From Candidatus Adiutrix sp. (GTDB lineage: Bacteria; Desulfobacterota; Desulfarculia; Adiutricales; Adiutricaceae), in assembly GCA_031273445.1 (NCBI GenBank), contig JAISRV010000013.1, positions 1-11,207 of the forward strand: 11,207 nt of DNA, in the 5' to 3' direction. Positions 1 to 11,207 of the stretch are shown here, piece by piece. A program made the translations under genes and the position numbers. Positions within the stretch are counted from its first letter, which is position 1. Each line of letters opens with the position of its first letter. A model generated the notes under the pieces. The model did not search any database, had not been told where the DNA came from, and saw only the letters and a program-made list of their open reading frames with translations.

Positions 1-9
1 AACTCGCTC

Positions 10-39
10 GCCAGGCAAAAATCACATTGTTTGCCCGGC
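10..39 (+). repeat. Degenerate copy of repeat hairpin B upstream of pylT
   Basis: An imperfect inverted repeat with arms reading GCCAGGCAAA and TTTGCCCGGC. It matches the B hairpin found at 243-272, 993-1022 and (inverted) 5535-5564, but has a changed left arm and a G inside the T run. The following bases, with a CAAGCCGA motif near 54-61, resemble the tail after the B hairpin in the copy upstream of pylSn. Any A hairpin would lie before the window start. No coding function is seen in 1-78. Confidence 0.7.
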
Positions 40-78
40 TGCGGTCAGCCCCGACAAGCCGAGCGCTTATATTTAAAC

Positions 79-152
79 GGAGGGTGGATCGATAAAGGAT
101 CGTCTGGGCTCTAAACCCACATAGCCGGGTGCGACTCCCGGACCCTCCGCCA
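79..152 (+). tRNA. pylT: tRNA-Pyl (anticodon CTA), pylT
   Basis: This is the amber-decoding pyrrolysine tRNA. The acceptor arms GGAGGGT (79-85) and ACCCTCC (142-148) pair over 7 bp, followed by discriminator G149 and encoded CCA (150-152). The features peculiar to tRNA-Pyl are present: one base (G86) between acceptor and D stem, a GATC/GATC D stem (87-90 with 98-101), anticodon loop CTCTAAA (109-115) with anticodon CTA at 111-113, a three-base variable region (122-124), and a CCGGG/CCCGG T stem (125-129 with 137-141) closing a TGCGACT loop without TTC. Two details are odd: the D loop is 7 nt rather than the 5 of the Methanosarcina and Desulfitobacterium tRNAs, and the six-bp anticodon stem (103-108 with 116-121) has a C104-C120 mismatch. 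A TATATT at 68-73 could be a -10 box, but no good -35 is seen. The adjacent pylSn/pylSc genes fit the assignment. Confidence 0.94.
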
Positions 153-182
153 AATTTGACGACCAGGCGCCGCTTAAAGCCA

Positions 183-272
183 GTCGCCCCCGAAGAGGGG
201 CGACGGAGGACGCGACCGGTTGACATGGTTAAAAGGCCCCCGGCCGGGCAAAAATCACATTTTTTGCCCGGC
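183..272 (+). repeat. Two-hairpin repeat, forward copy, in the pylSn leader
   Basis: Hairpin A is GTCGCCCC (183-190), loop CGAAGA, GGGGCGAC (197-204). About 38 bases later comes hairpin B: GCCGGGC (243-249), A5, TCACA, T6, GCCCGGC (266-272). The spacer contains CGCGACCGGTTGA and a TTAAAAGGCCCC stretch, both nearly identical to the inverted copy at 5535-5625. The copy lies between pylT and pylSn, ending 44 bp before the pylSn ribosome binding site, so it would be transcribed as leader RNA if the two genes are cotranscribed. Confidence 0.85.
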
Positions 273-329
273 GCCGAGCCGGCCGTCCAAGCCGACCAGG
301 CGAATATTTTTAAAGCAAAGAGGCCCGCC

Positions 330-680
330 ATGCTTGAAAACGTCAACGCCAAGCCGGCGCCCAAACGTTACTACCGCAAAAAAGTGGACCTTTTCGTCCT
401 TTTGGACAAGATGAAGCTCTGGCCTTCCCGCTCCGGCGTTTTGCATGGCCTCAAAAGCATCGACCGTCATGGCGAAATGGCCGTGCTGACCACCCATTGC
501 GGCCGCAGCTTCAAAGTGCGCAATTCACGCCGCAGCCGGGCGGCGCGCTGGCTGCGCAACAAGCTGCATCAGTCCGCCTGCCCGGCTTGCGCTGTGCCTC
601 AATGGAAGCTGGATAAATACGGGGCCACTTTTTTCAGCCGCCGCCAGGGCTCGCTCCTGAAAGGCGGGCCGAACCGCTGA
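330..680 (+). CDS. pylSn: Pyrrolysyl-tRNA synthetase N-terminal domain protein PylSn
   Basis: A 116-aa stand-alone N-terminal domain of pyrrolysyl-tRNA synthetase. In bacteria this domain is a separate protein that binds the T-arm, variable-loop side of tRNA-Pyl and assists PylSc. The family core is clear: KRYYRKKVDLF (12-22), KLWPSRSGVLHGLKS (29-43), THCG (55-58), VRNSRRSRAARWLRNK (63-78) and CPAC (84-87). His39, Cys57, Cys84 and Cys87 align with the zinc ligands of the archaeal N-domain. The ATG at 330 is preferred because AAAGAGG (317-323) lies 6 bases upstream and the family starts at this point. The frame is open back to 129, but that start would overlap the tRNA gene. The C-terminal 15 residues are basic and not family-typical. 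The gene sits between pylT and pylSc, whereas Desulfitobacterium hafniense has pylSn at the end of the cluster. Confidence 0.94.
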   Translation: MLENVNAKPAPKRYYRKKVDLFVLLDKMKLWPSRSGVLHGLKSIDRHGEMAVLTTHCGRSFKVRNSRRSRAARWLRNKLHQSACPACAVPQWKLDKYGATFFSRRQGSLLKGGPNR

Positions 681-693
681 TCCGCCCCGCCTT

Positions 694-824
694 GGAGGCG
701 AATTTTTGTCTCATCGCTCATTTGTTCCGTTCGTTACGTCCCGCCATTTCAGGGGTTGACAGCCAGCAGTTCTCGGGTGTAGGCGAACATTTTAAAAAGC
801 AAGTCGCCCCCGGAGAGGGGCGAC
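694..824 (+). repeat. Tandem repeat unit 1 (about 130 bp)
   Basis: The unit starts GGAGGCGAATTTTTG, runs through TCATCGCTCATT and GTTCCGTT, then a CGCCATTT block, GACAGCC, GGCGAACATTTTAAAAAGCA, and ends in hairpin A (803-824). It lines up along its whole length with 825-953, differing at scattered positions, which indicates an old head-to-tail duplication. It begins about 14 bases after the pylSn stop. Confidence 0.85.
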
Positions 825-953
825 GGAGCGAATTTTGTTTCATCGCTCATTAGTTCCGTTAATTACGCCCCGCCATTTTAGAGGCTGACAGCCGGCAATT
901 CTCAGGCGAAGGCGAACATTTTAAAAAGCAGGTCGCCCCCGGAGAGGGGCGAC
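825..953 (+). repeat. Tandem repeat unit 2 (about 130 bp)
   Basis: This is the second copy of the preceding unit, from GGAGCGAATTTTG through TCATCGCTCATTAG, CGCCATTTTAGAGG, GGCGAACATTTTAAAAAGCA to hairpin A (932-953). Unlike unit 1, it is followed by the full spacer and hairpin B. It is therefore the unit that joins the dispersed two-hairpin repeat family. Confidence 0.85.
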
Positions 954-1022
954 GGAGCGAAGCGACTGGTCGAGAAGGCGATAAATTCACTGGCCGGGCA
1001 AAAATCGCATTTTTTGCCCGGC
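932..1022 (+). repeat. Two-hairpin repeat, forward copy, in the pylSc leader
   Basis: Hairpin A is GTCGCCCC (932-939) and GGGGCGAC (946-953). The spacer begins CGGAGCGAAGCGAC. Hairpin B is GCCGGGC (993-999), A5, TCGCA, T6, GCCCGGC (1016-1022), followed by TACGACCCAG. This is the same 91-bp layout as the inverted copy at 5535-5625, including the TACGACCCAG that follows B. It ends 28 bases before the pylSc ribosome binding site. Confidence 0.87.
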
Positions 1023-1060
1023 TACGACCCAGATAGCCAAGCATTTTACTGGAGATATAT

Positions 1061-1912
1061 ATGGATTGGACTGACGAACAGAACAAACGCCTGACCGACC
1101 TGGGCGCCGGGCCGGATATTCTGGCTTCTCATTTTGAAGACTCCGCGGAACGCAATCGCGCCTTTCAGAAAATCGAAGCCGGGCTGGCTCATGAGACCGG
1201 CGATAAAATACGCCGCCATCTGGCGGAAGTCCGGCGTCCCGAATTGGTCGTTCTCCGGGAAAAGCTGGCCGCCGCCCTGGTCGCGGCCGGCTTCACCGAG
1301 GTTGAAACTCCGCTGACCGTCTCCCGCCTCCACCTGGAGCGGATGGGCCTCACCGAAGACCACTCGCTGAACAGGCAGATTTTCTGGCTGGACAGGAACA
1401 AGGCCATGCGGCCCATGCTGGCGCCGAACCTGTATTATCTGATGGTGGACCTTTTGCGCCTGGCGCCTCACCCGGTGAGCATTTTTGAAATCGGGCCGTG
1501 TATGCGCAAGGAAACCCAGGGCGCCCAACATGCGGCGGAATTCACCATGCTCAACCTGGTGGAAATGGGGCTGCCGCTCCCGGCCCGCCGGGAGCGCATG
1601 GAAGAATTGGCCCGGCTGGTGCTGAAGGCCTCCGGCCTGCCGGTGGACGAATGCCGGCTGACGACGGAAAAATCCGGCGTTTACGGGGAAACCCTGGATG
1701 TGGAAAGCCCGGAAGGCCTGGAACTGGCCAGCGCCGCCATGGGCCCGCACCCGCTGGACGCGCCCTGGGGCATTGACGCGCCCTGGGTCGGTCTCGGTTT
1801 CGGGCTGGAAAGACTGGTCATGGCCCGGGCCGCCCTGGACGGTCTGACCTTGAATCCGGCCCGGGCCGGCCGCAGTCTGGCCTATCTGGGCGGCTTCAGG
1901 CTCAATGTTTAA
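1061..1912 (+). CDS. pylSc: Pyrrolysyl-tRNA synthetase catalytic subunit PylSc
   Basis: A 283-aa class II aminoacyl-tRNA synthetase that charges tRNA-Pyl with pyrrolysine using ATP, in the cytoplasm. It corresponds to the C-terminal domain of archaeal PylS and is about the length of D. hafniense PylSc. Signature segments are RPMLAPNLYYL (117-127), IFEIGPCMRKETQGAQH (141-157, motif 2 with Arg149 and Glu151), FTMLNLVEMG (161-170), VYGETLD (207-213) and PWVGLGFGLERL (241-252, motif 3). Pocket residues aligned with M. mazei are Ala121 (A302), Leu124 (L305), Tyr125 (Y306), Met128 (L309), Asn165 (N346), Val167 (C348), Tyr208 (Y384) and Trp242 (W417). The substrate-recognising Asn and Tyr are kept; Met128 and Val167 differ from the archaeal enzyme. 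The start ATG has GGAGA 5 bases upstream. pylB begins 12 bases after the stop, so the two are very likely cotranscribed. Confidence 0.97.
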   Translation: MDWTDEQNKRLTDLGAGPDILASHFEDSAERNRAFQKIEAGLAHETGDKIRRHLAEVRRPELVVLREKLAAALVAAGFTEVETPLTVSRLHLERMGLTEDHSLNRQIFWLDRNKAMRPMLAPNLYYLMVDLLRLAPHPVSIFEIGPCMRKETQGAQHAAEFTMLNLVEMGLPLPARRERMEELARLVLKASGLPVDECRLTTEKSGVYGETLDVESPEGLELASAAMGPHPLDAPWGIDAPWVGLGFGLERLVMARAALDGLTLNPARAGRSLAYLGGFRLNV

Positions 1913-1924
1913 AGCGGGTGAGGC

Positions 1925-3010
1925 ATGACGGCGAATCTCGGCCATATATTGGAAAAAGCTAAGAATTATGAAGAGTTGACCCGTGAAGAACTGGCCCGGA
2001 TCATCAGCCCGGCCGACGACGGCGAACGGCTGGAGATTCGCGCGGCGGCCCGGGAAATGCGCGGCCGCCACAGCGGGGAGCTTATTTTCACCTACGGCTT
2101 CGTCTATCTCAGCACCTACTGCCGCAACGACTGCCGTTTTTGCGCCTATCGCCGCACCAACAGCCGGGCCCGGCGTTATCGCAAAGACAAGGACGAAGTG
2201 TTCCGGGCCGCCGAGCGTCTGGCGCGTCAGGGCGTCAACCTGATTGATCTGACCATGGGCGAGGACCCGGCCAGCGATGAGCCCGCCTTCATCGACCAGA
2301 CGGCCGGCCTGATCGAAGGGGTGCGCGGCGTCTGCGGTCTGCCGGTCATGATTTCGCCGGGGCTGGCCTCGCGCGCGGCCCTGACCAGATATAAAAAAGC
2401 GGGGGCGGACTGGTACGCCTGTTACCAGGAAACCCACAACCCCGCTCTTTTCAGCCGCCTGCGTCAGGGTCAGGATTACGGGGAGCGGCGGCGGGCCAAG
2501 ACGGCGGCCCTCGAAACGGGCCTGTTGGTGGAGGAAGGCGTTCTGTGCGGGGTCGGCGAAACGGCGGAAGACCTGGCTGATTCCATCCTGGCCATGAAGC
2601 GGCTCGGGGCCGGGCAGGTGCGGGCCATGGGCTTCATTCCCCCGGCCGAAGCGCGCGGCGACGTTTCCGGCCGCTGGGCCGGGAGCCCCGGGCCCGGCCG
2701 GGCCCAGGCGCGGGAAGTGGACATGATCGCGGCTCTGCGTCTGGCCCTGCCTGACCGCCTCATTCCCGCCTCGCTGGATGTCGAAGGGCTGGCCGGGCTG
2801 CCCGAGCGTCTTATGGCCGGGGCCAACGTCGTCACTTCCCTGGTGCCCTCGGATATGGCCCTGGCCGGGGTGGCCCAGGCCAGCCTGGACATAGACAACG
2901 AGGCCAGAAGCGTCAAAGGCGTCCGGCCGGCGGTGGAGGCCGCCGGGCTTAAACTGGCCTCGGCCGGCGAATACCGCGGCTGGCTCAATCAGGCCAGGCC
3001 GGCGGCATGA
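1925..3010 (+). CDS. pylB: 3-methylornithine synthase PylB (radical SAM)
   Basis: PylB is a radical S-adenosylmethionine mutase that turns L-lysine into (3R)-3-methyl-D-ornithine, the first step of pyrrolysine synthesis. The protein is 361 aa, the family size. The [4Fe-4S]-binding CxxxCxxC motif is Cys66, Cys70 and Cys73, in STYCRNDCRFCAYRRTN (63-79). Other segments shared with the archaeal enzyme are LIDLTMGEDP (106-115), VMISPG (141-146), CYQETHNPALFSRLRQGQ (166-183), LCGVGE (207-212), LIPASLDVEGL (279-289) and AGANVVTSLVP (298-308). A Gly/Arg/Pro-rich stretch at about 241-265 is roughly 8 residues longer than in Methanosarcina PylB. The start ATG has GGTGAGG upstream. The stop overlaps the pylC start (ATGA, 3007-3010), indicating translational coupling. 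Confidence 0.97.
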   Translation: MTANLGHILEKAKNYEELTREELARIISPADDGERLEIRAAAREMRGRHSGELIFTYGFVYLSTYCRNDCRFCAYRRTNSRARRYRKDKDEVFRAAERLARQGVNLIDLTMGEDPASDEPAFIDQTAGLIEGVRGVCGLPVMISPGLASRAALTRYKKAGADWYACYQETHNPALFSRLRQGQDYGERRRAKTAALETGLLVEEGVLCGVGETAEDLADSILAMKRLGAGQVRAMGFIPPAEARGDVSGRWAGSPGPGRAQAREVDMIAALRLALPDRLIPASLDVEGLAGLPERLMAGANVVTSLVPSDMALAGVAQASLDIDNEARSVKGVRPAVEAAGLKLASAGEYRGWLNQARPAA

Positions 3011-4146
3011 CCTTCCGGCTGGGCATTCTGGGCGGCGGCCTTCAGGGCACGGAAGCGGCCTGTCTGGCCCGTTGGGCCGGCTGGGAAACAGTCTTGGTCG
3101 ACGCCCGACCCCAGGCGCCGGCCTCCGCCTTGGCCGGGCGTTTCCTTCATTTGCCGGTCGCCGGTTTCGGCGACCTGGAAAAAGCTTTCGGCCATTGCGA
3201 TGCGGTGGTCCCGGCCTGTGAAGACCTGCCCACGCTGGAGCTCCTGAGCCGCTGGGGCGACGAGAGCGGCCTTCCGGTGGCTTTTGACCTTGAAGCCTAC
3301 CGGATCAGCCGCGACAAGATTCTCTCCAAGGCTTTGTTTCTCAAGGCCGGAATTCCCGCTCCGCTGGCCTGGCCCGAGGCCGGCTATCCTTTGATCGCCA
3401 AACCCGCGGCCTCCAGCGGCAGCCGGGGAGTGACCCTGCTGGCCACGGAAGCCGATTTCAGGCGCAAATTTCCTTCCGGAGACATAAGCGGCTGGGTGGT
3501 GGAGGAATACTGCCCCGGCCCTTCCTATTCGCTGGAGGCGACCGGGCGCCCCGGCGCCCATCGGGCCTGGCTGACCACCGCGCTGGAGATGGATGAAGTC
3601 TACGACTGCCGCCTGGTTCGCGCTCCCGCCGCTCTGCCCGGCCGGCAAGAGGAGGAGCTGCGGTCTTTTTCCCTTAAAACGGCGGCCGCCCTGGGCCTGA
3701 CCGGCCTTATGGATGTGGAAGTCATCGCCGCCCCGCAGGGTTTGAGAGTTCTGGAGATCGACGCGCGCCTGCCCAGCCAGACGCCCACGGCGGTCTTGTG
3801 GTCTTCCGGCGAAAACCTTCTGGCGCGTTTGACGGAAATTTTCTGCCCCTGTCCCCGCCCCGAGCCCGCCGTTTCCGGCCGGGCGGTTATTTATGAACAC
3901 GCGGCCGTGACTCCCGCCGGCCTTAAAAGCGCGGGCGAACACCTCATGTCGGCCGCCGGCCCTTTGAGCCTGAAGGAAAACTTTTTCGGCGCGGACCTGG
4001 CCGTGACCGACTACGCCCCGGGCCGGGCCGCCTGGGCGGCCGCTCTCATTATGACCGGAGAAGACGCCGACGCCGCCCAGGCCAGGCGCCGGGAAGTCTG
4101 GGCCAGGCTGGCCCGGCGGTTCTCAAGGCAACGGACAATCCAGTGA
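3007..4146 (+). CDS. pylC: 3-methylornithine--L-lysine ligase PylC (ATP-grasp)
   Basis: PylC uses ATP to join 3-methylornithine to the epsilon-amine of L-lysine, the second step of pyrrolysine synthesis. The protein is 379 aa, against about 363 in Methanosarcina. Visible segments are a Rossmann-like N-terminus with LGGGLQG (8-14), FDLEAYRISRDKILSK (93-108), which closely matches the archaeal enzyme, the ATP-grasp strand LIAKPAASSGSRGV (129-142), VVEEYCPGPSYSLE (164-177), and the metal/ATP-binding region GLMDVEVI (233-240) with LEIDARLPSQTPTAV (249-263). It starts inside the pylB stop (ATGA) and its own stop overlaps a GTG start for mgtE. The product normally goes to PylD, which is not encoded in the window. 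Confidence 0.96.
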   Translation: MTFRLGILGGGLQGTEAACLARWAGWETVLVDARPQAPASALAGRFLHLPVAGFGDLEKAFGHCDAVVPACEDLPTLELLSRWGDESGLPVAFDLEAYRISRDKILSKALFLKAGIPAPLAWPEAGYPLIAKPAASSGSRGVTLLATEADFRRKFPSGDISGWVVEEYCPGPSYSLEATGRPGAHRAWLTTALEMDEVYDCRLVRAPAALPGRQEEELRSFSLKTAAALGLTGLMDVEVIAAPQGLRVLEIDARLPSQTPTAVLWSSGENLLARLTEIFCPCPRPEPAVSGRAVIYEHAAVTPAGLKSAGEHLMSAAGPLSLKENFFGADLAVTDYAPGRAAWAAALIMTGEDADAAQARRREVWARLARRFSRQRTIQ

Positions 4147-5507
4147 AATCAGTAATACAGCGCAATCTAAAGAGCCTGATTGAAGAGGGGCGGGAAGCCG
4201 AATTGGCCGAAATGCTGGCCGGTCTGCATCCCGCCGACGTGGCGGAGATTCTCAATCCTTTGGATATGGAAGACACCGTCAAGGTCATCTCTCTGTTGGA
4301 CATTGAACACGCCTCCGATGTTCTGGTGGAAATGTCCGAAGCCGCCCGGGACCAGGTGGCCGCGGAAATGCCTCTGGAAAAGCTCACCGAACTGGTCGCC
4401 GAGATGGATTCCGACGACGCCGCGGACATCGTGGCCGAATTGCCGGATGAAGAGGCCCACAAAGTTCTGGCGGCCATTGAGCGGAAAGACGCCGAAGGCG
4501 TGCGGCGCCTGATGATGTACGATGAGGAGACGGCCGGCGGCTTGATGCAGGTGGAGCTGATTTCGGCCCGGGAAGATGAGGTCGTCTCCAGCGTGGTCGA
4601 TAAGCTGCGTCAGGCCGGCGACGACGTGGGGGTCATATATTACATTTTCGTGGTGGATCAGGCCGGCGTCCTGCGCGGTCAGGTGACCATCCGGCAGCTG
4701 CTTTTGGCCTGGCCCGACCAGATCATGAAGGAGATGATGTCCGCCCCCGCCCTGATCGTGCGCGTCGACGAAGATCAGGAGGCCGTGGCTCAGAATTTTC
4801 AGAAATATGACGTTCAGACCGCGCCGGTCGTCGACGGCCATGGGCGCCTGCTGGGCCGCATCACCTTCGACGACATCATGGACGTGGTTCACGAAGAGAC
4901 GGATCAGGACTTCTACCGTATGGCCGGATCGTCCGAAGAAGAGGTCTATTCCAGCGGTTCGGCCAAGATCGCGACTCTGCGCATGCCCTGGCTCGCCTTC
5001 AACCTCGTCGGCGGCTTCATCACCAGCGCCATTCTTTCCTATTTCAACGTCTCATTCAGCAATATCATTATGCTGACGCCCTTTGTCCCCATGATTATGG
5101 GCCTGTCCGGGGCGGTCGGCTCCCAGTCGTCCACCATCACCGTGCGCGGGCTGGCCATAGGCCGCATCGCCGAGGGCAAGGTCTGGAGCAATGTCGTCCG
5201 GGAAATCAGAATATCAGTCATAATCGCCGTGACCCTGGGGGTCGTCATCGCCCTGGGCACGGGCGGACTTCATTCGGCCGGAACGTCCGGCGCGTCCGGC
5301 GCGGCCGCCCGGCTGGGGCTGGCCGTGGGCGCTTCCATCGTCGCCGCCATCGTCGTCTCCACTGTTCTGGGGTCGGTTATTCCCCTTTTATTCAAAGCCA
5401 TGAAAATCGACCCGGCCCTGGCTTCCGGCCCGGTGGTCACTTCGGCCAACGACGTGGCCAGCCTTTTCATTTACATGTCCGTCGGGACTTTTATTTTGAC
5501 GATGTGA
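4143..5507 (+). CDS. mgtE: Magnesium channel/transporter MgtE
   Basis: A 454-aa inner-membrane Mg2+ channel of the MgtE family, full length. It has the cytoplasmic MgtE N-domain (about 5-130, with LHPADVAEIL and SDDAADIVAELPDEEAH), two CBS domains (about 135-195 and 200-255), the connecting helix, and a five-helix membrane domain (about 282-453). The pore signatures are LSGAVGSQSSTITVRGLAIG (321-340) and DPALASGPVVTSANDVASLF (423-442). Asp437 aligns with the Mg2+-selectivity aspartate of Thermus MgtE (D432). The GTG start is chosen because the N-domain begins there; it overlaps the pylC stop (GTGA, 4143-4146), so expression is probably coupled to pylC. Family members close by sensing Mg2+ through the N and CBS domains. 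A direct role in pyrrolysine biology is not known. Confidence 0.95.
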   Translation: MKSVIQRNLKSLIEEGREAELAEMLAGLHPADVAEILNPLDMEDTVKVISLLDIEHASDVLVEMSEAARDQVAAEMPLEKLTELVAEMDSDDAADIVAELPDEEAHKVLAAIERKDAEGVRRLMMYDEETAGGLMQVELISAREDEVVSSVVDKLRQAGDDVGVIYYIFVVDQAGVLRGQVTIRQLLLAWPDQIMKEMMSAPALIVRVDEDQEAVAQNFQKYDVQTAPVVDGHGRLLGRITFDDIMDVVHEETDQDFYRMAGSSEEEVYSSGSAKIATLRMPWLAFNLVGGFITSAILSYFNVSFSNIIMLTPFVPMIMGLSGAVGSQSSTITVRGLAIGRIAEGKVWSNVVREIRISVIIAVTLGVVIALGTGGLHSAGTSGASGAAARLGLAVGASIVAAIVVSTVLGSVIPLLFKAMKIDPALASGPVVTSANDVASLFIYMSVGTFILTM

Positions 5508-5508
5508 G
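5494..5508 (+). repeat. 15-bp direct repeat, copy 1, spanning the mgtE stop
   Basis: TTTTGACGATGTGAG covers the last mgtE codons and the TGA. The identical 15 bases recur at 5632-5646, 138 bp downstream. Both copies are followed, after 19 and 29 bases, by GGTCGTAGCCGGGCAAAA, so the similarity extends beyond the 15-mer. Confidence 0.9.
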
Positions 5509-5534
5509 TCGTGCCCGGGGCCGGCTGGGTCGTA

Positions 5535-5625
5535 GCCGGGCAAAAAATGTGATTTTTGCCCGGCGAGGGGCCTTTTACCCGCTTCAACCGGTCGCTTCGC
5601 TCCGTCGCCCCTCTCCGGGGGCGAC
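5535..5625 (-). repeat. Two-hairpin repeat, inverted copy after mgtE
   Basis: Read on the minus strand this is hairpin A (5625-5604), a spacer with CGGAGCGAAGCGACCGGTTGA and TAAAAGGCCCC, then hairpin B (5564-5535: GCCGGGC, A5, TCACA, T6, GCCCGGC), followed by TACGACCCAG. It is close to the copy at 183-272 in the spacer and to 932-1022 in the flanks. It faces the upstream copies. Confidence 0.87.
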
Positions 5626-5635
5626 TGGCTTTTTT
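5604..5635 (+). terminator. Possible intrinsic terminator after mgtE (hairpin A plus T6)
   Basis: An 8-bp stem GTCGCCCC/GGGGCGAC (5604-5611 with 5618-5625) with a 6-base loop is followed by TGGC and then six T (5630-5635). It is positioned 97 bases after the mgtE stop and could end the pyl-mgtE transcript. The four bases between stem and T run are more than in a classic terminator. The hairpin is also part of the repeat family, so the termination role is inference. Confidence 0.4.
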
Positions 5636-5646
5636 GACGATGTGAG
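5632..5646 (+). repeat. 15-bp direct repeat, copy 2
   Basis: TTTTGACGATGTGAG is identical to the mgtE end at 5494-5508. Here it is non-coding. It is followed by a GC-rich TGGCCGGCC doublet (about 5657-5674) and a truncated repeat. Confidence 0.9.
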
Positions 5647-5682
5647 CGCGTCGGCTTGGCCGGCCTGGCCGGCCTGGTCGTA

Positions 5683-5700
5683 GCCGGGCAAAATATGTGA
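5683..5700 (-). repeat. Truncated hairpin B after the second direct repeat
   Basis: GCCGGGCAAAATATGTGA matches the first arm and loop of the inverted B hairpin at 5535-5552, except that A6 has become AAAAT-A, and it is preceded by the same GGTCGTA. The second arm is missing; the sequence continues into unrelated GCCGCGCC. This looks like the broken end of a partial tandem duplication. Confidence 0.75.
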
Positions 5701-5730
5701 GCCGCGCCGGCTGCGCCTCCCTGCCGCAGC

Positions 5731-5759
5731 TTGAGTTTTAAGCGTCAAAATATTATCAT
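5731..5759 (+). promoter_or_regulatory. Candidate sigma-70 promoter for the sigma-54 activator gene
   Basis: TTGAGT (5731-5736, 4 of 6 against TTGACA) and TATCAT (5754-5759, 5 of 6 against TATAAT) are separated by 17 bases in an A/T-rich island within GC-rich sequence. A start near 5766 would leave a leader of about 20 bases before the ATG at 5787. No GG-N10-GC sigma-54 promoter is seen here. The call is by eye. Confidence 0.5.
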
Positions 5760-5786
5760 ATAAACAGTTAGCGGGCGGAGGGGGCG

Positions 5787-7295
5787 ATGACTGATATCCT
5801 GATCGTGGTGAAAGACGACAAGCTGGCCGGGCTTTTAGCCACCGCCTGCCAGGATCGGGGCGCGGACGCTTTTCGCGCGCTGGGCGCCGCCCAGGCCCTG
5901 CCGGAAATAAGCCAGCCTGGCGCCGGGCGCCGCAAGTGGGCCGGCCTTTTGCTGGACCTGGGTTACGCCCAAGGCAAGCCTCTGGCTCTGGTGCGGGATT
6001 TTCTGGCGGAGAATCCCGAATTGAAAATTGTGGCCCTGGGCCGGAATATGGATGTCCGGACTTTGGCCGGGCTCATGCGCGAGGGGGTCTTCGATTTTTT
6101 GGAGCTGCCGCCCGAGCCGGTGGAAATGTCCAAGTGCCTGGACAATTTTTTAGGCCGTCTGGGGCCGGCCGCCAAGCCCAAAATCAAGGGCGGCGCCCCT
6201 GATCCCGGACGTTATGACCATATTGTGGGCGCGAGCGCGTCCCTGAAAAAAGTTTTCAGAATGATCGACAAAGTGGCCGGAACCGACTCCACGGTCATGA
6301 TTCACGGAGAAAGCGGCGCCGGCAAAGAACTCATCGCCCGGGCCATTCACCAGGGTAGCCCGCGGGGAGACCGCCGGCTCATTCCGGTCAACTGCGGGGC
6401 CATCCCGGAAGAGCTTCTGGAAACGGAGCTCTTCGGCCATGAAAAAGGCGCCTTCACCAACGCCATCCGCACCCGCATAGGCCGTTTCGAAATGGCTGAC
6501 GGCAGCAGCATCTTTTTGGACGAAATCGGCGACATGAGCCCCAAGCTGCAGGTAAAGCTGCTGAGGGTGCTGCAGGAGCACGAGTTTGAGCGGGTGGGCG
6601 GCGACAAAGTCATCAAGGTGGACATAAGGGTCATCGCCGCCACGCATGTGGACCTGACCAGGGCGGTGGAGGAAGGCCGCTTTCGCGAAGACCTGTTCTA
6701 TCGGCTGAATGTGATTCCCATAACCATGCCGCCCTTAAGAGAGCGTTTGGACGATGTGCCGCTGCTGGTCGAATTTTTTCTCCGGCGTTTCCGGGAAAAG
6801 CGGGGCAGCGAGGTCAAAGGGGTAAGCCGGGAAGCCATGAGCCGCCTCTTGAGCTACGGCTGGCCCGGCAATGTCCGGGAGCTGGAAAACCTGATCGAAC
6901 GCATGGTCACTCTGGCCGAGGGGGATATTCTGACGGTGGAGGACCTGCCGGCCAAGCTTTTGGAGGCCACGGAAGGGCTTTCGCCGCCGACCTGGCCGGC
7001 GGCCGAAGAAGCGCCGCGGGAAACGGCGGCGGCCGGAGAGAGGGCGGGCCTGGCCGCCGAAATCCCGGCGGCCGGGGATTTGCCGCGGCCGCCGGCGGAG
7101 GCGGAGGACTGGCTTTTCCCCGCCGAAGGGGTTGATTTTAACAGCCTTGTTTCGGCCTATGAGGAGAGACTGATTCGAGGGGCTCTGGCCGAAGCCGGGG
7201 GGGTGAAGAACCAGGCGGCCAGGCTTCTGGGCCTCAACCGCACCACTTTAGTGGAAAAAATGCGCAAAAAAGGCCTGGCGACGGAAGACGGCTGA
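5787..7295 (+). CDS. Sigma-54-dependent response-regulator-like activator (NtrC family)
   Basis: A 502-aa bacterial enhancer-binding protein that would drive RNA polymerase with sigma-54 by ATP hydrolysis. Domains are a receiver-like region (about 1-120), an AAA+ domain (about 144-375) and a C-terminal Fis-type helix-turn-helix (about 455-497). The AAA+ motifs are intact: Walker A GESGAGK (174-180), Walker B IFLDEIGDM (242-250), arginine-finger region REDLFYRLNV (300-309) and WPGNVRELEN (359-368). The sigma-54-contacting loop reads GAFTNA (221-226) instead of GAFTGA. The receiver keeps Asp10, Asp11 and Asp57 but lacks the usual Thr/Ser (ALGRN, 83-87) and Lys (LPPEP, 107-111), so phosphorylation control may be altered. 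An Ala/Glu/Pro-rich linker fills about 394-445. The HTH end, LNRTTLVEKMRKKGL, resembles flagellar-type regulators such as FlrC/FleQ, but no flagellar gene is present. GGAGGGGG lies just upstream of the ATG. The target is unknown. Confidence 0.95.
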   Translation: MTDILIVVKDDKLAGLLATACQDRGADAFRALGAAQALPEISQPGAGRRKWAGLLLDLGYAQGKPLALVRDFLAENPELKIVALGRNMDVRTLAGLMREGVFDFLELPPEPVEMSKCLDNFLGRLGPAAKPKIKGGAPDPGRYDHIVGASASLKKVFRMIDKVAGTDSTVMIHGESGAGKELIARAIHQGSPRGDRRLIPVNCGAIPEELLETELFGHEKGAFTNAIRTRIGRFEMADGSSIFLDEIGDMSPKLQVKLLRVLQEHEFERVGGDKVIKVDIRVIAATHVDLTRAVEEGRFREDLFYRLNVIPITMPPLRERLDDVPLLVEFFLRRFREKRGSEVKGVSREAMSRLLSYGWPGNVRELENLIERMVTLAEGDILTVEDLPAKLLEATEGLSPPTWPAAEEAPRETAAAGERAGLAAEIPAAGDLPRPPAEAEDWLFPAEGVDFNSLVSAYEERLIRGALAEAGGVKNQAARLLGLNRTTLVEKMRKKGLATEDG

Positions 7296-7330
7296 TTCAA
7301 GGCCCGCCGGCCTTTGGCCGATAAAACGGC

Positions 7331-7337
7331 AAGGAGG
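7331..7337 (+). promoter_or_regulatory. Strong ribosome binding site pointing to an ATC codon
   Basis: AAGGAGG is followed after 5 bases by ATCATC (7343-7348), in frame with the downstream TPR gene. No ATG, GTG or TTG lies at the right distance in any frame. The GTG at 7421 has no such site before it (preceding bases TTTTTGGTCC). See the TPR gene for the consequence. Confidence 0.6.
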
Positions 7338-7420
7338 CGCCTATCATCAAGAGCACCGGCCAGAAGAGCACAGCCCGCTTTAAGAGCGCCAGCCAGAAGG
7401 GCCTAGCCCATTTTTGGTCC

Positions 7421-10288
7421 GTGACCGCCTGGCTGGCCGCGCTGGTTCTTTGCGTCCTTTCAGGCCGCGCGCCGGAGGCCGGCGCGCAGAGCGGCGCTCT
7501 GCCCGCGCCCGCCGCCAACACTCTGGTTCGCGTCTCCACCAGTCCGGGGCCGGACTACACCCGCCTGGCTTTCACTTTCGAAAACCCCCTGGATTATTAC
7601 GTTGTGCGCCGTGAAGACGTCGACCGGCTGTTGGTCGATTTCGGCCAGGCCCGCCTGGCGGGGCGCCCGACGGCGGCGCCGGATGAACTTATTGACGGCG
7701 TCGAGTTTAATTTCGAGGACGGCCGGCTGACGGCCAGGATTTTTTTGAAGGCCATGCGCTATGAGCTGCGCCATTTTCTCAGCCGCGACAAATATTCTTG
7801 TATTCTGGACCTTAAAAATCTGGAATCGCCGGGCCTGGAAACGCCGCCGCCGCCGGACGATCTCAAGCCGCTGACCCTGCCCACCCTGGCGGAAGAAGCT
7901 CGCCTGGTCGGCCTCCTGGCCCCGCCCGGCTCGGAAGACGGCCCGCCTGAAAGGCTGTTTCAGCGGATTTTAAACGAGTTGACCGATTGGAACAATCAGG
8001 CGGCCTTGGAAGATTTGCTGCGATTCCGCGAGCTTTTCCCTGGGCATCCTCTGCTTGAGCCGGCGCTCTTCCTTTTGGGCGACGCCTATTTCGTCACGGG
8101 GCCCTTGTCGGAGACCTATACCGCGGCGGTAGAGGCCTGGACGGAAGCGCTTAATCGCTGGCCGCAGTCTTACCTGGCCGGGCGGGCCCAGTTCATGCTG
8201 GCCGAGGCCGATCAGGCCATGGGCTATCAGAACGAAGCCGCGGCCAAATATAAGCTGCTGGCCGCCGCCGCCGTCTCCGGCGACGACCCCTACGCCAAAC
8301 TGGCCCTCCTGCGGGCCGCCGATCTGCAGTTGAACATGGGCCTGATCGACGAGGCGCGCAAGACTCTGGAGCCGGTTCTGGAGCAAGGCCTGGCCGATCG
8401 GCTGGGCCTGGAAGCCTACGCCCGTCTGGGCATGGCCGATTTTTACGAAGGTCTCTACAGCCAGGCCAATGAAATATTCCGCGAGGCGCTGCGGGAGGCG
8501 CCGCAGTTGTACACAGGCTATCCGGAGATGCTTTACGCCATGGGCGAGGCCTATCACTATCTCGACCGCCCGGATCTGTCGCGCATGTTTCTCATGCATG
8601 CCCTGAGCCTGATGCCGGATCACCCCAAGGCCGACGTAATCATGGCCCGCATCGGCGACAGTTATCGTAAAGAGGGCCGTGACGACGAAGCCATGGCTAT
8701 TTACGGCGCGGCCAAACGCCGTTTTCCCGATGGCGACGGCGGGCTGATCAGTCAAGTGCGGCTGGCCGACATGGGGGCGCTCCACAGTTTTTTCACGCAG
8801 GACAAGGTTTTCGACTCGCTGGAGCGCGGGGCCCGCCAAGCCACGGTGGAGATGTATCAGGGCATTGTCGACACCGCTTCGTCCTCCCCTCTGCTGCAGC
8901 TGGCCTATCTGAAAATAGGCCTGGCCCTGGCTGAAGACGGCGAAACATCCGAGGCCATCAAGTGGCTGCGGGATCTGGACATGAAATATCCCAAAAGCGC
9001 CCTTCTGCCCGAAGCTTTGCCCGCCTTGAGCCGGGCCCTGGTCAATGAAACGACGCTTAGGGCCGAGTTGGAAGAGTGGGAAGCCGTGGCCGATCTCTAC
9101 GCCGACAATTCTTCATATCTGACAGACGCCGACCGCCCCGTGGCGCAGCGGATCGTGGCCCGGGCCTATGAAAAACTGGGGCGTTTCGACGAAGCCCGCG
9201 AAGTCTGGAAAGCTCTGGAGGAACAAACCCCGGAAAAAAGGCTGGCCCGGGCTCAGGGTCTGGTGGTCAGCAGCTTGAAAATGGAGAGGCCAATGGAGGC
9301 CTTGGACTATCTTCTGACCATGGCGGAGGAATTCCCCGAGCAGGCGGCCTGGCTGGATCTTCAGGCCGACCAGATAGGCCTGGCCCTGGCCCGGCCTCAA
9401 AACGCCTCGGCCACGGCGGATCTGCTTAAATTCAGAACCATGATCCCGACCGAAGCGGTTCGCCGGCGCGCCCTGGCCGACGCCGTCGAAATAGAGATCA
9501 ACGGCCGCCGTTACGACAAGGCCACGGCTTTGATGGACGAATACCGCCGGGAATACCCCGATGACGAACTGACGCCGGAGTATCTGCTGACCCAGGCCAA
9601 AATAGAAGAGCGGCAAAAGCGCTATGAAAACGGTTGGGACATGCTCTCTGATTTCCGGCGACTCTATCCGGACGACCCGCGCGGGCCGGAGCTTTTGCTG
9701 GAGCAGATTCGGAAAGCCGACGCGCTCGGCCGGGAAGACGACGCCTTCCGTTTTATGGCCCTCTATCAGATGCGTTATCCAGAACGGGCTGAGAGCCGGG
9801 AGCTTTTGACGGAGAAGATGAGGCGGGAATGGGATCTGGGCCGCTATGCCGACTCCCAGAGCACTTTTGAGGCCTTCAGGCGCGCCTATCCGGGCGACCC
9901 GGCCATACCCGCGCTCCTGATGGATAGAGCGGCCCGCGACTGGGAAAAGGGGCGTTACGACGAGTCGCAGTGGGCCGTCGACGAAATGCTCCTGAATTAT
10001 CCCGATGACCCCAGAACGCCGACTCTTTTGCTGGAGCGGGCCGCCAGGGACTGGGAGGCGGAGCGCTATGAGGCCTCCCAGGCGGCCGTCGACAGGCTGA
10101 CGCAACTGTATCATGACGATCCCAGGGTTCCGGAGATGCTTTTGCGGCGGGCTGAAAACGACTGGGGCCGTGATCGCCTGGAGGCGGCCAGGCGCGGCTG
10201 GGACGATTTCCGCCGGGCTTATCCGGACGACCCCGGCGGGGGCGGAGTTTTCTGGATCAATATAAAAAGAGCGTTGAAAAAGGGCTGA
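7421..10288 (+). CDS. Large exported TPR protein with AMIN-like N-terminus (5' part, frameshifted)
   Basis: Numbered from the GTG at 7421 this is 955 aa, but the true start may be ATC at 7343, which adds a basic segment (five Lys and one Arg) before the hydrophobic core WLAALVLCVL and completes a normal signal peptide with possible cleavage near AGAQS. After it comes a beta-rich segment (about 35-125: LVRVSTSPGPDYTRLAFTF, then RLLVDF) resembling AMIN-type cell-envelope domains. The rest is tandem TPR-like helical repeats. From residue 712 they run with an exact 37-residue period (YPDDP-type starts at 712, 749, 786, 823, 860, 897, 934), like the spacing in YbgF/BamD-type TPRs. The frame ends early at 10288 after GGGGVFWINIKRALKKG, which is unlike the repeats; the repeats resume in another frame. 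A periplasmic scaffold or envelope-assembly role is inference; the substrate is unknown. It follows the sigma-54 activator by 47 bases (to 7343) and may be cotranscribed with it. Confidence 0.85.
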   Translation: MTAWLAALVLCVLSGRAPEAGAQSGALPAPAANTLVRVSTSPGPDYTRLAFTFENPLDYYVVRREDVDRLLVDFGQARLAGRPTAAPDELIDGVEFNFEDGRLTARIFLKAMRYELRHFLSRDKYSCILDLKNLESPGLETPPPPDDLKPLTLPTLAEEARLVGLLAPPGSEDGPPERLFQRILNELTDWNNQAALEDLLRFRELFPGHPLLEPALFLLGDAYFVTGPLSETYTAAVEAWTEALNRWPQSYLAGRAQFMLAEADQAMGYQNEAAAKYKLLAAAAVSGDDPYAKLALLRAADLQLNMGLIDEARKTLEPVLEQGLADRLGLEAYARLGMADFYEGLYSQANEIFREALREAPQLYTGYPEMLYAMGEAYHYLDRPDLSRMFLMHALSLMPDHPKADVIMARIGDSYRKEGRDDEAMAIYGAAKRRFPDGDGGLISQVRLADMGALHSFFTQDKVFDSLERGARQATVEMYQGIVDTASSSPLLQLAYLKIGLALAEDGETSEAIKWLRDLDMKYPKSALLPEALPALSRALVNETTLRAELEEWEAVADLYADNSSYLTDADRPVAQRIVARAYEKLGRFDEAREVWKALEEQTPEKRLARAQGLVVSSLKMERPMEALDYLLTMAEEFPEQAAWLDLQADQIGLALARPQNASATADLLKFRTMIPTEAVRRRALADAVEIEINGRRYDKATALMDEYRREYPDDELTPEYLLTQAKIEERQKRYENGWDMLSDFRRLYPDDPRGPELLLEQIRKADALGREDDAFRFMALYQMRYPERAESRELLTEKMRREWDLGRYADSQSTFEAFRRAYPGDPAIPALLMDRAARDWEKGRYDESQWAVDEMLLNYPDDPRTPTLLLERAARDWEAERYEASQAAVDRLTQLYHDDPRVPEMLLRRAENDWGRDRLEAARRGWDDFRRAYPDDPGGGGVFWINIKRALKKG

Positions 10289-11207
10289 TTGAGGAAGCCT
10301 TCGCCCTGGCCGAGGGCTTTCGGGCCAGCCAGCCCGATGACCCCATACAGCCCGATCTGATGCTGGAGGAGGCCAAGGACCTTTTCACGATCGGCCGCTC
10401 CGGGGAGGGCCTGGCCATGTGGGAACGCTTCCGCCGCGCCTTTCCGGACGACCCCAGAACCCCGGAGCTAATGCTGATTCAGGCCCGCCAGGAGCTGAAG
10501 GGCGGCCTGAACGACGCGGCCCTGGCTCACTATCAGGAGTTTATCGGCCAATATCCCGGCCACGCCGCCGCCCCTGACGTCTATCTGGAGACGGCCGCGG
10601 CGGAAACGCGCCTGGGGCGGCCGGAACAGGCCTGGGCTCGCCTGGCCCGCTACAACCAGCTTTTCCCGGCTCATGAGGGCCGGCCCGGGGCCCTGTTGGA
10701 TCAGGTCGAGCTGGGCCGGCAGCTGGGCCGGAACCTGGAGGCGGCGGAGCTATATAAAACATTCCGCCGCGACTACCCGCATTCGCCCCAGGTCCCGGCC
10801 ACATACCTGGATCAGGTCAGGCTGGAAATAGCCGGCGGCCGGAATCTTCAGGCCGTCGAAACCCTTGAAGAAGGCCTCTTAACCACGCCGCAGCTGGACG
10901 AAGACCCCCAGGCGCAGGCCCTCCTGGCCGATCTGTATCTCGAAGTCGGCCGGGTGGAGGACTGGGCGGCCGTCGTCGAACGCAATCTGAACCGCGAGCC
11001 CAACGCGGCCGCCGGTTCGGCCGACCGGTTTCTCAAGTATCAGCAGCTGGCCCAGGTGCACCAGGAGCTGGGTCAGGCGGCCGACGCCGAGCGCAACTAT
11101 GATGCGGCTCTGTCCAACCGCCCGCCCGACGCTTCGCCCGAGGCCCTTTACGCCATTGCCGGCGCCTATAAAAAATTGATGAGGCCGGATAAATACGCCG
11201 ACGCGCT
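10261..11207 (+). CDS. Continuation of the TPR protein in the -1 frame (partial, no start)
   Basis: This frame, open up to the window edge, continues the same protein: YKKSVEKGLIEEAFALAEGF, then repeats beginning QPDDPIQP, FPDDPRTP, YPGHAAAP, FPAHEGRP and YPHSPQVP, each 37 residues apart. It has no good start codon or ribosome binding site at its beginning; the first ATG is at 10360 inside a repeat. The best reading is that 7343/7421 to beyond 11207 is one gene with a single-base loss near 10238-10242, from mutation or from a sequencing or assembly error. Later residues (LADLYLEVGRVEDWAAVVERNL, then YQQLAQVHQELGQAADAERNYDAAL) are ordinary TPR-like helices. The 3' end lies outside the window. 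Confidence 0.8.

Follow-up and report, generated by a model that had tools for sequence, protein, structure and literature searches.

Where is pylD in a genome whose pyrrolysine cluster has no such gene, and is the last biosynthetic step performed by PylD at all? The question is raised by a plus-strand cluster at the beginning of contig 43 of a Candidatus Adiutrix sp. assembly (G000); the whole stretch of DNA that was analysed, bases 1-11207 of this contig, is referred to below as the window. A preliminary description of the window had recognised a block of pyl genes with mgtE in the place of pylD, and had considered a pylD located elsewhere (possibly just upstream of base 1), oxidation by another enzyme, or decay of the system.

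The pyl cluster of contig 43

The genes follow each other on the plus strand in the order tRNA-Pyl, pylSn, pylSc, pylB, pylC, and then mgtE:

79..152, plus strand: pylT, tRNA-Pyl with a CUA anticodon (CTA) and an encoded CCA (ARAGORN)
330..680, plus strand: pylSn, encoding the N-terminal portion (116 aa) of the split pyrrolysyl-tRNA synthetase (TIGR03912, 115 bits, cut-off 51)
704..961, plus strand: a 129-nt tandem repeat of two copies in the gap between pylSn and pylSc (repeat search, 89%)
1061..1912, plus strand: pylSc, encoding the catalytic portion (283 aa) of the synthetase (TIGR02367, 278 bits, cut-off 178; PDB 3dsq, E 2.1e-76)
1925..3010, plus strand: pylB, 361 aa, methylornithine synthase, a radical SAM enzyme (TIGR03910, 379 bits, cut-off 348; PDB 3t7v, E 1.8e-61)
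3007..4146, plus strand: pylC, 379 aa, 3-methylornithine-lysine ligase (TIGR03909, 320 bits, cut-off 248; PDB 4ffl, E 1e-47)
4143..5507, plus strand: mgtE, magnesium transporter, the neighbouring gene (TIGR00400, 328 bits, cut-off 233)

The ARAGORN prediction and the NCBIfam equivalog models, all four of which are exceeded above their curated cut-offs by PylSn, PylSc, PylB and PylC, bear out the five components, their common strand and their order. The cloverleaf of bases 79-149 folds at -30.4 kcal/mol (z -2.4), a value reached by 4 of 200 shuffled sequences. The ATG at position 330 is the likelier start of pylSn than that of the mechanically delimited frame 129-680, which overlaps the tRNA gene; in the same-genus genome G003 a tblastn match of 82% identity begins at residue 1 of the ATG-330 start. 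The frame after pylC was rightly taken for mgtE, which overlaps the end of pylC by 4 bases and is followed in the window by a sigma-54 activator and TPR proteins (Pfam). The reported absence of a PylD-like sequence from the window also holds, since none was found among the eight window frames scanned against Pfam, and the PylD model TIGR03911, run over the whole G000 assembly, gave no listed match on contig 43.

Two kinds of repeats were observed around these genes. The gap between pylSn and pylSc in G003 (L113:3421-4140) also contains tandem repeats, with a different long repeat, as spotted by eye. A 30-nt near-palindromic hairpin with a 12-bp stem occurs in the window at 10-39, 243-272 and 993-1022 (plus strand) and at 5535-5564 (minus strand), with a folding energy of -20.6 kcal/mol for the two copies that were folded. 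With up to 3 mismatches allowed, this hairpin was counted across the G000 assembly 73 times in forward and 65 times in reverse orientation (a near-palindrome is scored on either strand), against 0 in the reversed-pattern control; changes in the stem are often paired among the listed copies (CCGGGC/GCCCGG, CTGGGC/GCCCAG, CCAGGC/GCCTGG). The G003 stretches L113 and L114 gave no match to the hairpin.

An intact pylD in the same assembly

A whole-genome search with the PylD profile recovered a single full-length pylD in G000, at 23995-24804 on the minus strand of contig 218 (TIGR03911, 153.8-154.1 bits, cut-off 150.05); weaker matches to this model, such as a second one in G000 on contig 189 with 18.9 bits, were left out. 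The protein is 299 aa long if translation begins at the outermost start and 276 aa with the more probable one, and its PylD_N domain (PF21455) scores above the cut-off of that family. The TIGR03911 score lies just about 4 bits above the curated threshold, which counts against our explanation; the assignment is supported by a match to the solved PylD structure 4j43 (E 3.5e-22) and by relatives of the protein. Among the 59 database proteins found, those named PylD by NCBI include entries from 'Deltaproteobacteria bacterium Smac51' and 'Candidatus Adiutrix sp.'; the Smac51 protein has the same length as PylD of G003 and, like the latter, is 52% identical to the query. Thus pylD does lie elsewhere, as one of the earlier suggestions had it, and the presence of an intact PylD gene in the same assembly leaves oxidation by another enzyme unsupported.

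The location of this gene on a separate contig allows a different interpretation, namely that contig 218 is a binning contaminant and that the real pylD belongs to an ordinary cluster, immediately ahead of base 1. The window indeed begins at a contig end, and the G000 bin (2.79 Mb in 439 contigs, 71.7% complete) has 2.9% contamination. Two further observations count against our explanation: the GC contents of the two compared stretches are unlike (0.63 and 0.59), and the assembly-wide hairpin is absent from 12 kb around pylD. However, pylD of contig 218 adjoins a divergently oriented flagellin gene in the same arrangement as in G003, and because the two flagellins are 84% identical, this synteny argues that contig 218 is not a stray one.

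The G003 genome is assembled in 3 contigs, one of which, 4,483,042 bases long, bears both the cluster (2,437,126-2,441,177, followed by mgtE as in G000) and pylD (11,354-12,094, beside the flagellin gene that resembles that of contig 218). The two loci are 2.43 Mb apart along the contig; on a circular contig the separation would still be at least 2.05 Mb. In this genome tblastn detected no pylD over 2.9 kb ahead of pylT (L113), and the sole good match is the distant one, so that G000 is unlikely to have a pylD immediately before base 1, and the contaminant interpretation as a whole is highly improbable. As G000 is too fragmented to show the distance between pylD and the cluster, we infer it from G003.

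Candidate use sites in trimethylamine methyltransferase genes

The preliminary description had proposed a look in the flanks for methyltransferase genes with in-frame TAG codons; in the G000 assembly such genes exist for MttB, though not for MtmB, which has no match there. Exactly one internal TAG is present in three of the ten MttB-family matches of this assembly. In an alignment that took in six of the ten, the three TAG codons fall into one column, filled by Val, Cys or Leu in the other aligned genes. The MttB gene on contig 99 matches the structure 7xcm (E 5.6e-110), and its TAG, counted by eye in the alignment, falls on residue 334, which we take to be the pyrrolysine of the Methanosarcina enzyme. 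Separately, the 4.7-Mb genome of G003 has 25 MttB-family matches; a single internal TAG is found in four of these and a single internal TGA in two.

These genes bear on the suggestion that the pyrrolysine system is decaying and that pylD is on its way out. It could be favored by five other genomes of the genus (G001, G002, G004, G005, and G006), where no PylD, PylC, PylSc or PylSn above the cut-off was found. In G000, on the contrary, the five protein genes (the four of the cluster and pylD) are open without internal stops, the three MttB TAG codons occupy one site, and both parts of the synthetase retain 81-82% identity to those of G003 (tblastn). Decay is therefore not supported, and we consider it very improbable.

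The most plausible explanation, to which we assign a probability of roughly 0.95, is a complete split pyrrolysine system, with pylD unlinked beside the flagellin gene since before the separation of G000 and G003. Judging from knowledge of the families, PylB would produce 3-methylornithine, PylC would join it to lysine, and PylD, encoded beside the flagellin gene, would oxidise the PylC product to pyrrolysine; PylSn and PylSc together would charge tRNA-Pyl, which would then read the in-frame UAG of the MttB genes. As the pathway looks complete, we favor a rearrangement over a missing step, that is, a known pathway in a new arrangement; a pylD inside the cluster is usual for pyrrolysine systems, though no requirement. 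The gene orders suggest that pylD has moved, and that its exit from the cluster predates the separation of the two genomes.

Distribution of pyl genes in the family of the window

The TIGR03911 model was run over 60 genomes, 37 of which belong to the family of the window (probably the Adiutricaceae). At E 0.001 it also picks up general dehydrogenases (41 of the 60 genomes, and 10 of 14 control genomes), and PylD was counted only at matches better than 1e-20. Such matches are present in 16 genomes, all of them members of the family. The curated cut-off is exceeded in only five of the 60 genomes, the remaining 11 of the 16 scoring below it, which again counts against our explanation. PylSn was detected in 17 of the 37 family genomes, with pylSc beside or near it in all 17 (tblastn on genome stretches); the searches for PylSc and PylC covered 38 genomes (24 from the family) and that for PylB 11.

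Two orders account for the 17 clusters. The Sn-Sc order is found in 11 of them (G000, G003, G008, G014, G015, G016, G022, G025, G028, G031, and G034), and the order Sc-D-Sn-B-C in six (G013, G019, G024, G027, G030, and G033). A full pylD is located elsewhere in eight of the 11 Sn-Sc genomes and a cut piece in one (G016); in two it was not found. The piece in G016 is the 3' part of the gene, contains a low-complexity insert that keeps the frame, and stands at the end of a contig other than that of the cluster; since it occupies the site used in sister genera, G016 was ruled out as a cluster-bearing genome that truly lacks pylD.

The remaining two genomes are relevant to the view that, after loss of pylD, another dehydrogenase took over the oxidation, which would agree with the absence of pylD from the cluster itself and is already refuted for G000 by its intact gene. 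No good PylD match was found in G028 (87% complete) or G034 (74%), both of which bear the cluster. However, the contig of G028 stops inside pylC and that of G034 within about 450 bases past it, and the gene that neighbors pylD in related genera was likewise not found in either genome, so that assembly gaps can account for the absence. Together with the nine Sn-Sc genomes in which all or part of pylD stands elsewhere, this makes a substitute dehydrogenase extremely unlikely in G000.

Isolated genes were also detected. G009 (61% complete) has pylC alone, at a contig start, and G036 (68% complete) has pylD, with neither PylSn nor PylB above the cut-off when searched. A second partial set, pylD-pylSn-pylB, was observed in G013 (contig 139, L116); nearby are a gene for a B12-binding protein and an mtmB whose frame contains a single TAG. 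Two tRNA-Pyl genes (4398-4469 and 4933-5004) lie between pylD and pylSn on contig 200 of G030 (L133).

Two chromosomal places of pylD

Unlinked pylD occupies two different chromosomal places in the family. In G008, G014, G021, G022, G025, G031, and G036 its tail-to-tail neighbor is an FMN-reductase-like gene, with a PHP-domain gene nearby in all but G008, whose contig starts there. The Pfam names of this neighborhood (FMN reductase, PHP, biotin carboxylase, U32 peptidase) are from G021 only, and the genes of the other genomes were named by similarity. The cut pylD of G016 is at the FMN-reductase place too, and in G015 about 2.3 kb separate pylD and the FMN-reductase gene. In G000 and G003 the gene is beside flagellin, and no pylD was found within the 1.5 kb examined at their FMN-reductase loci.

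G000 and G003 group together in the trees of PylSc and PylB, and the pair joins the genera of the Sc-D-Sn-B-C order, not the other Sn-Sc genera. The PylD tree sets these other genera apart (100/100) and does not settle the joining point of G000 and G003. The genome sets differ between the trees, G016, G028 and G034 having no usable PylD row. The PylD tree also unites the outgroup L112, which has a very long branch, with G000, leaving G003 outside (95/93); this counts against our explanation, and the grouping is probably an artefact.

Gene order and descent are thus out of step, and therefore pylD would have left the cluster twice, or once with a later move or a return. Since a circular reading of Sc-B-C-D-Sn gives Sn-Sc-B-C-D, the gene orders could have arisen through a duplicated cluster and subsequent loss; the D-Sn-B set of G013 is an example of a second partial copy.

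An orphan pylD is found in G021 (contig 108, L128), a 92% complete genome with an intact gene, where PylSn, PylSc, PylC and PylB were all absent above the cut-off and no MttB was found. The dN/dS ratio of this pylD versus that of G031 is about 0.28, and its neighbors in the same pair are more constrained (about 0.10 for the FMN reductase and about 0.15 for the PHP gene). The G021 assembly contains a second, diverged copy of the neighboring region without pylD, so the orphan may reflect a mixed bin. It is very improbable that pylD, having split off in the family and settled in two places, can outlive the cluster as an intact selected gene, as G021 would exemplify; if true, PylD would have a second job besides making pyrrolysine.

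Comparison with known pyrrolysine systems

The general bacterial orders described in part of PMC3941956 are pylTScBCDSn and pylSnScBCD. The cluster of the window consists of the same genes with a split synthetase, and its T-Sn-Sc-B-C order is that of pylSnScBCD; hence the position of Sn before Sc, which the preliminary description had singled out, is real but not unusual. The difference from the clusters described there is that pylD is elsewhere in the genome and not at the cluster end. The same source mentions a comparable separation in 'Ca. M. alvus', where pylB is unlinked, about 0.7 Mb from the other pyl genes. One biosynthesis gene is apart from the rest in both cases; however, 'Ca. M. 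alvus' is an archaeon, a methanogen, and its separated gene is pylB, not pylD.

A scan of named genome contigs for PylD found one relative only, a Gemmatimonadetes MAG (JABDNZ010000031.1, L112). It has all five proteins and tRNA-Pyl, as in G000, but its order is pylT-Sc-B-C-D-Sn, a published bacterial one with pylD in place. Pyrrolysine in marine Deltaproteobacteria is treated in PMC8318568, in passages that give no gene order. The open-access literature searched (for pyl order, unlinked pylD and the family), for the most part at the level of listings, gave no report of an unlinked bacterial pylD.

According to part of PMC9723677, a survey of pyrrolysine systems dropped homologues of PylB, PylC and PylD that were off the same contig, for the reason that these genes had only been reported close together. 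Genomes of the G000 type break this same-contig rule, and such a filter would drop their PylD. Because the pathway is complete, there is no need to postulate a new enzyme. The three gene orders, seen in near relatives and one outgroup, form together with the two places of pylD a small natural series for the rearrangement of this cassette.
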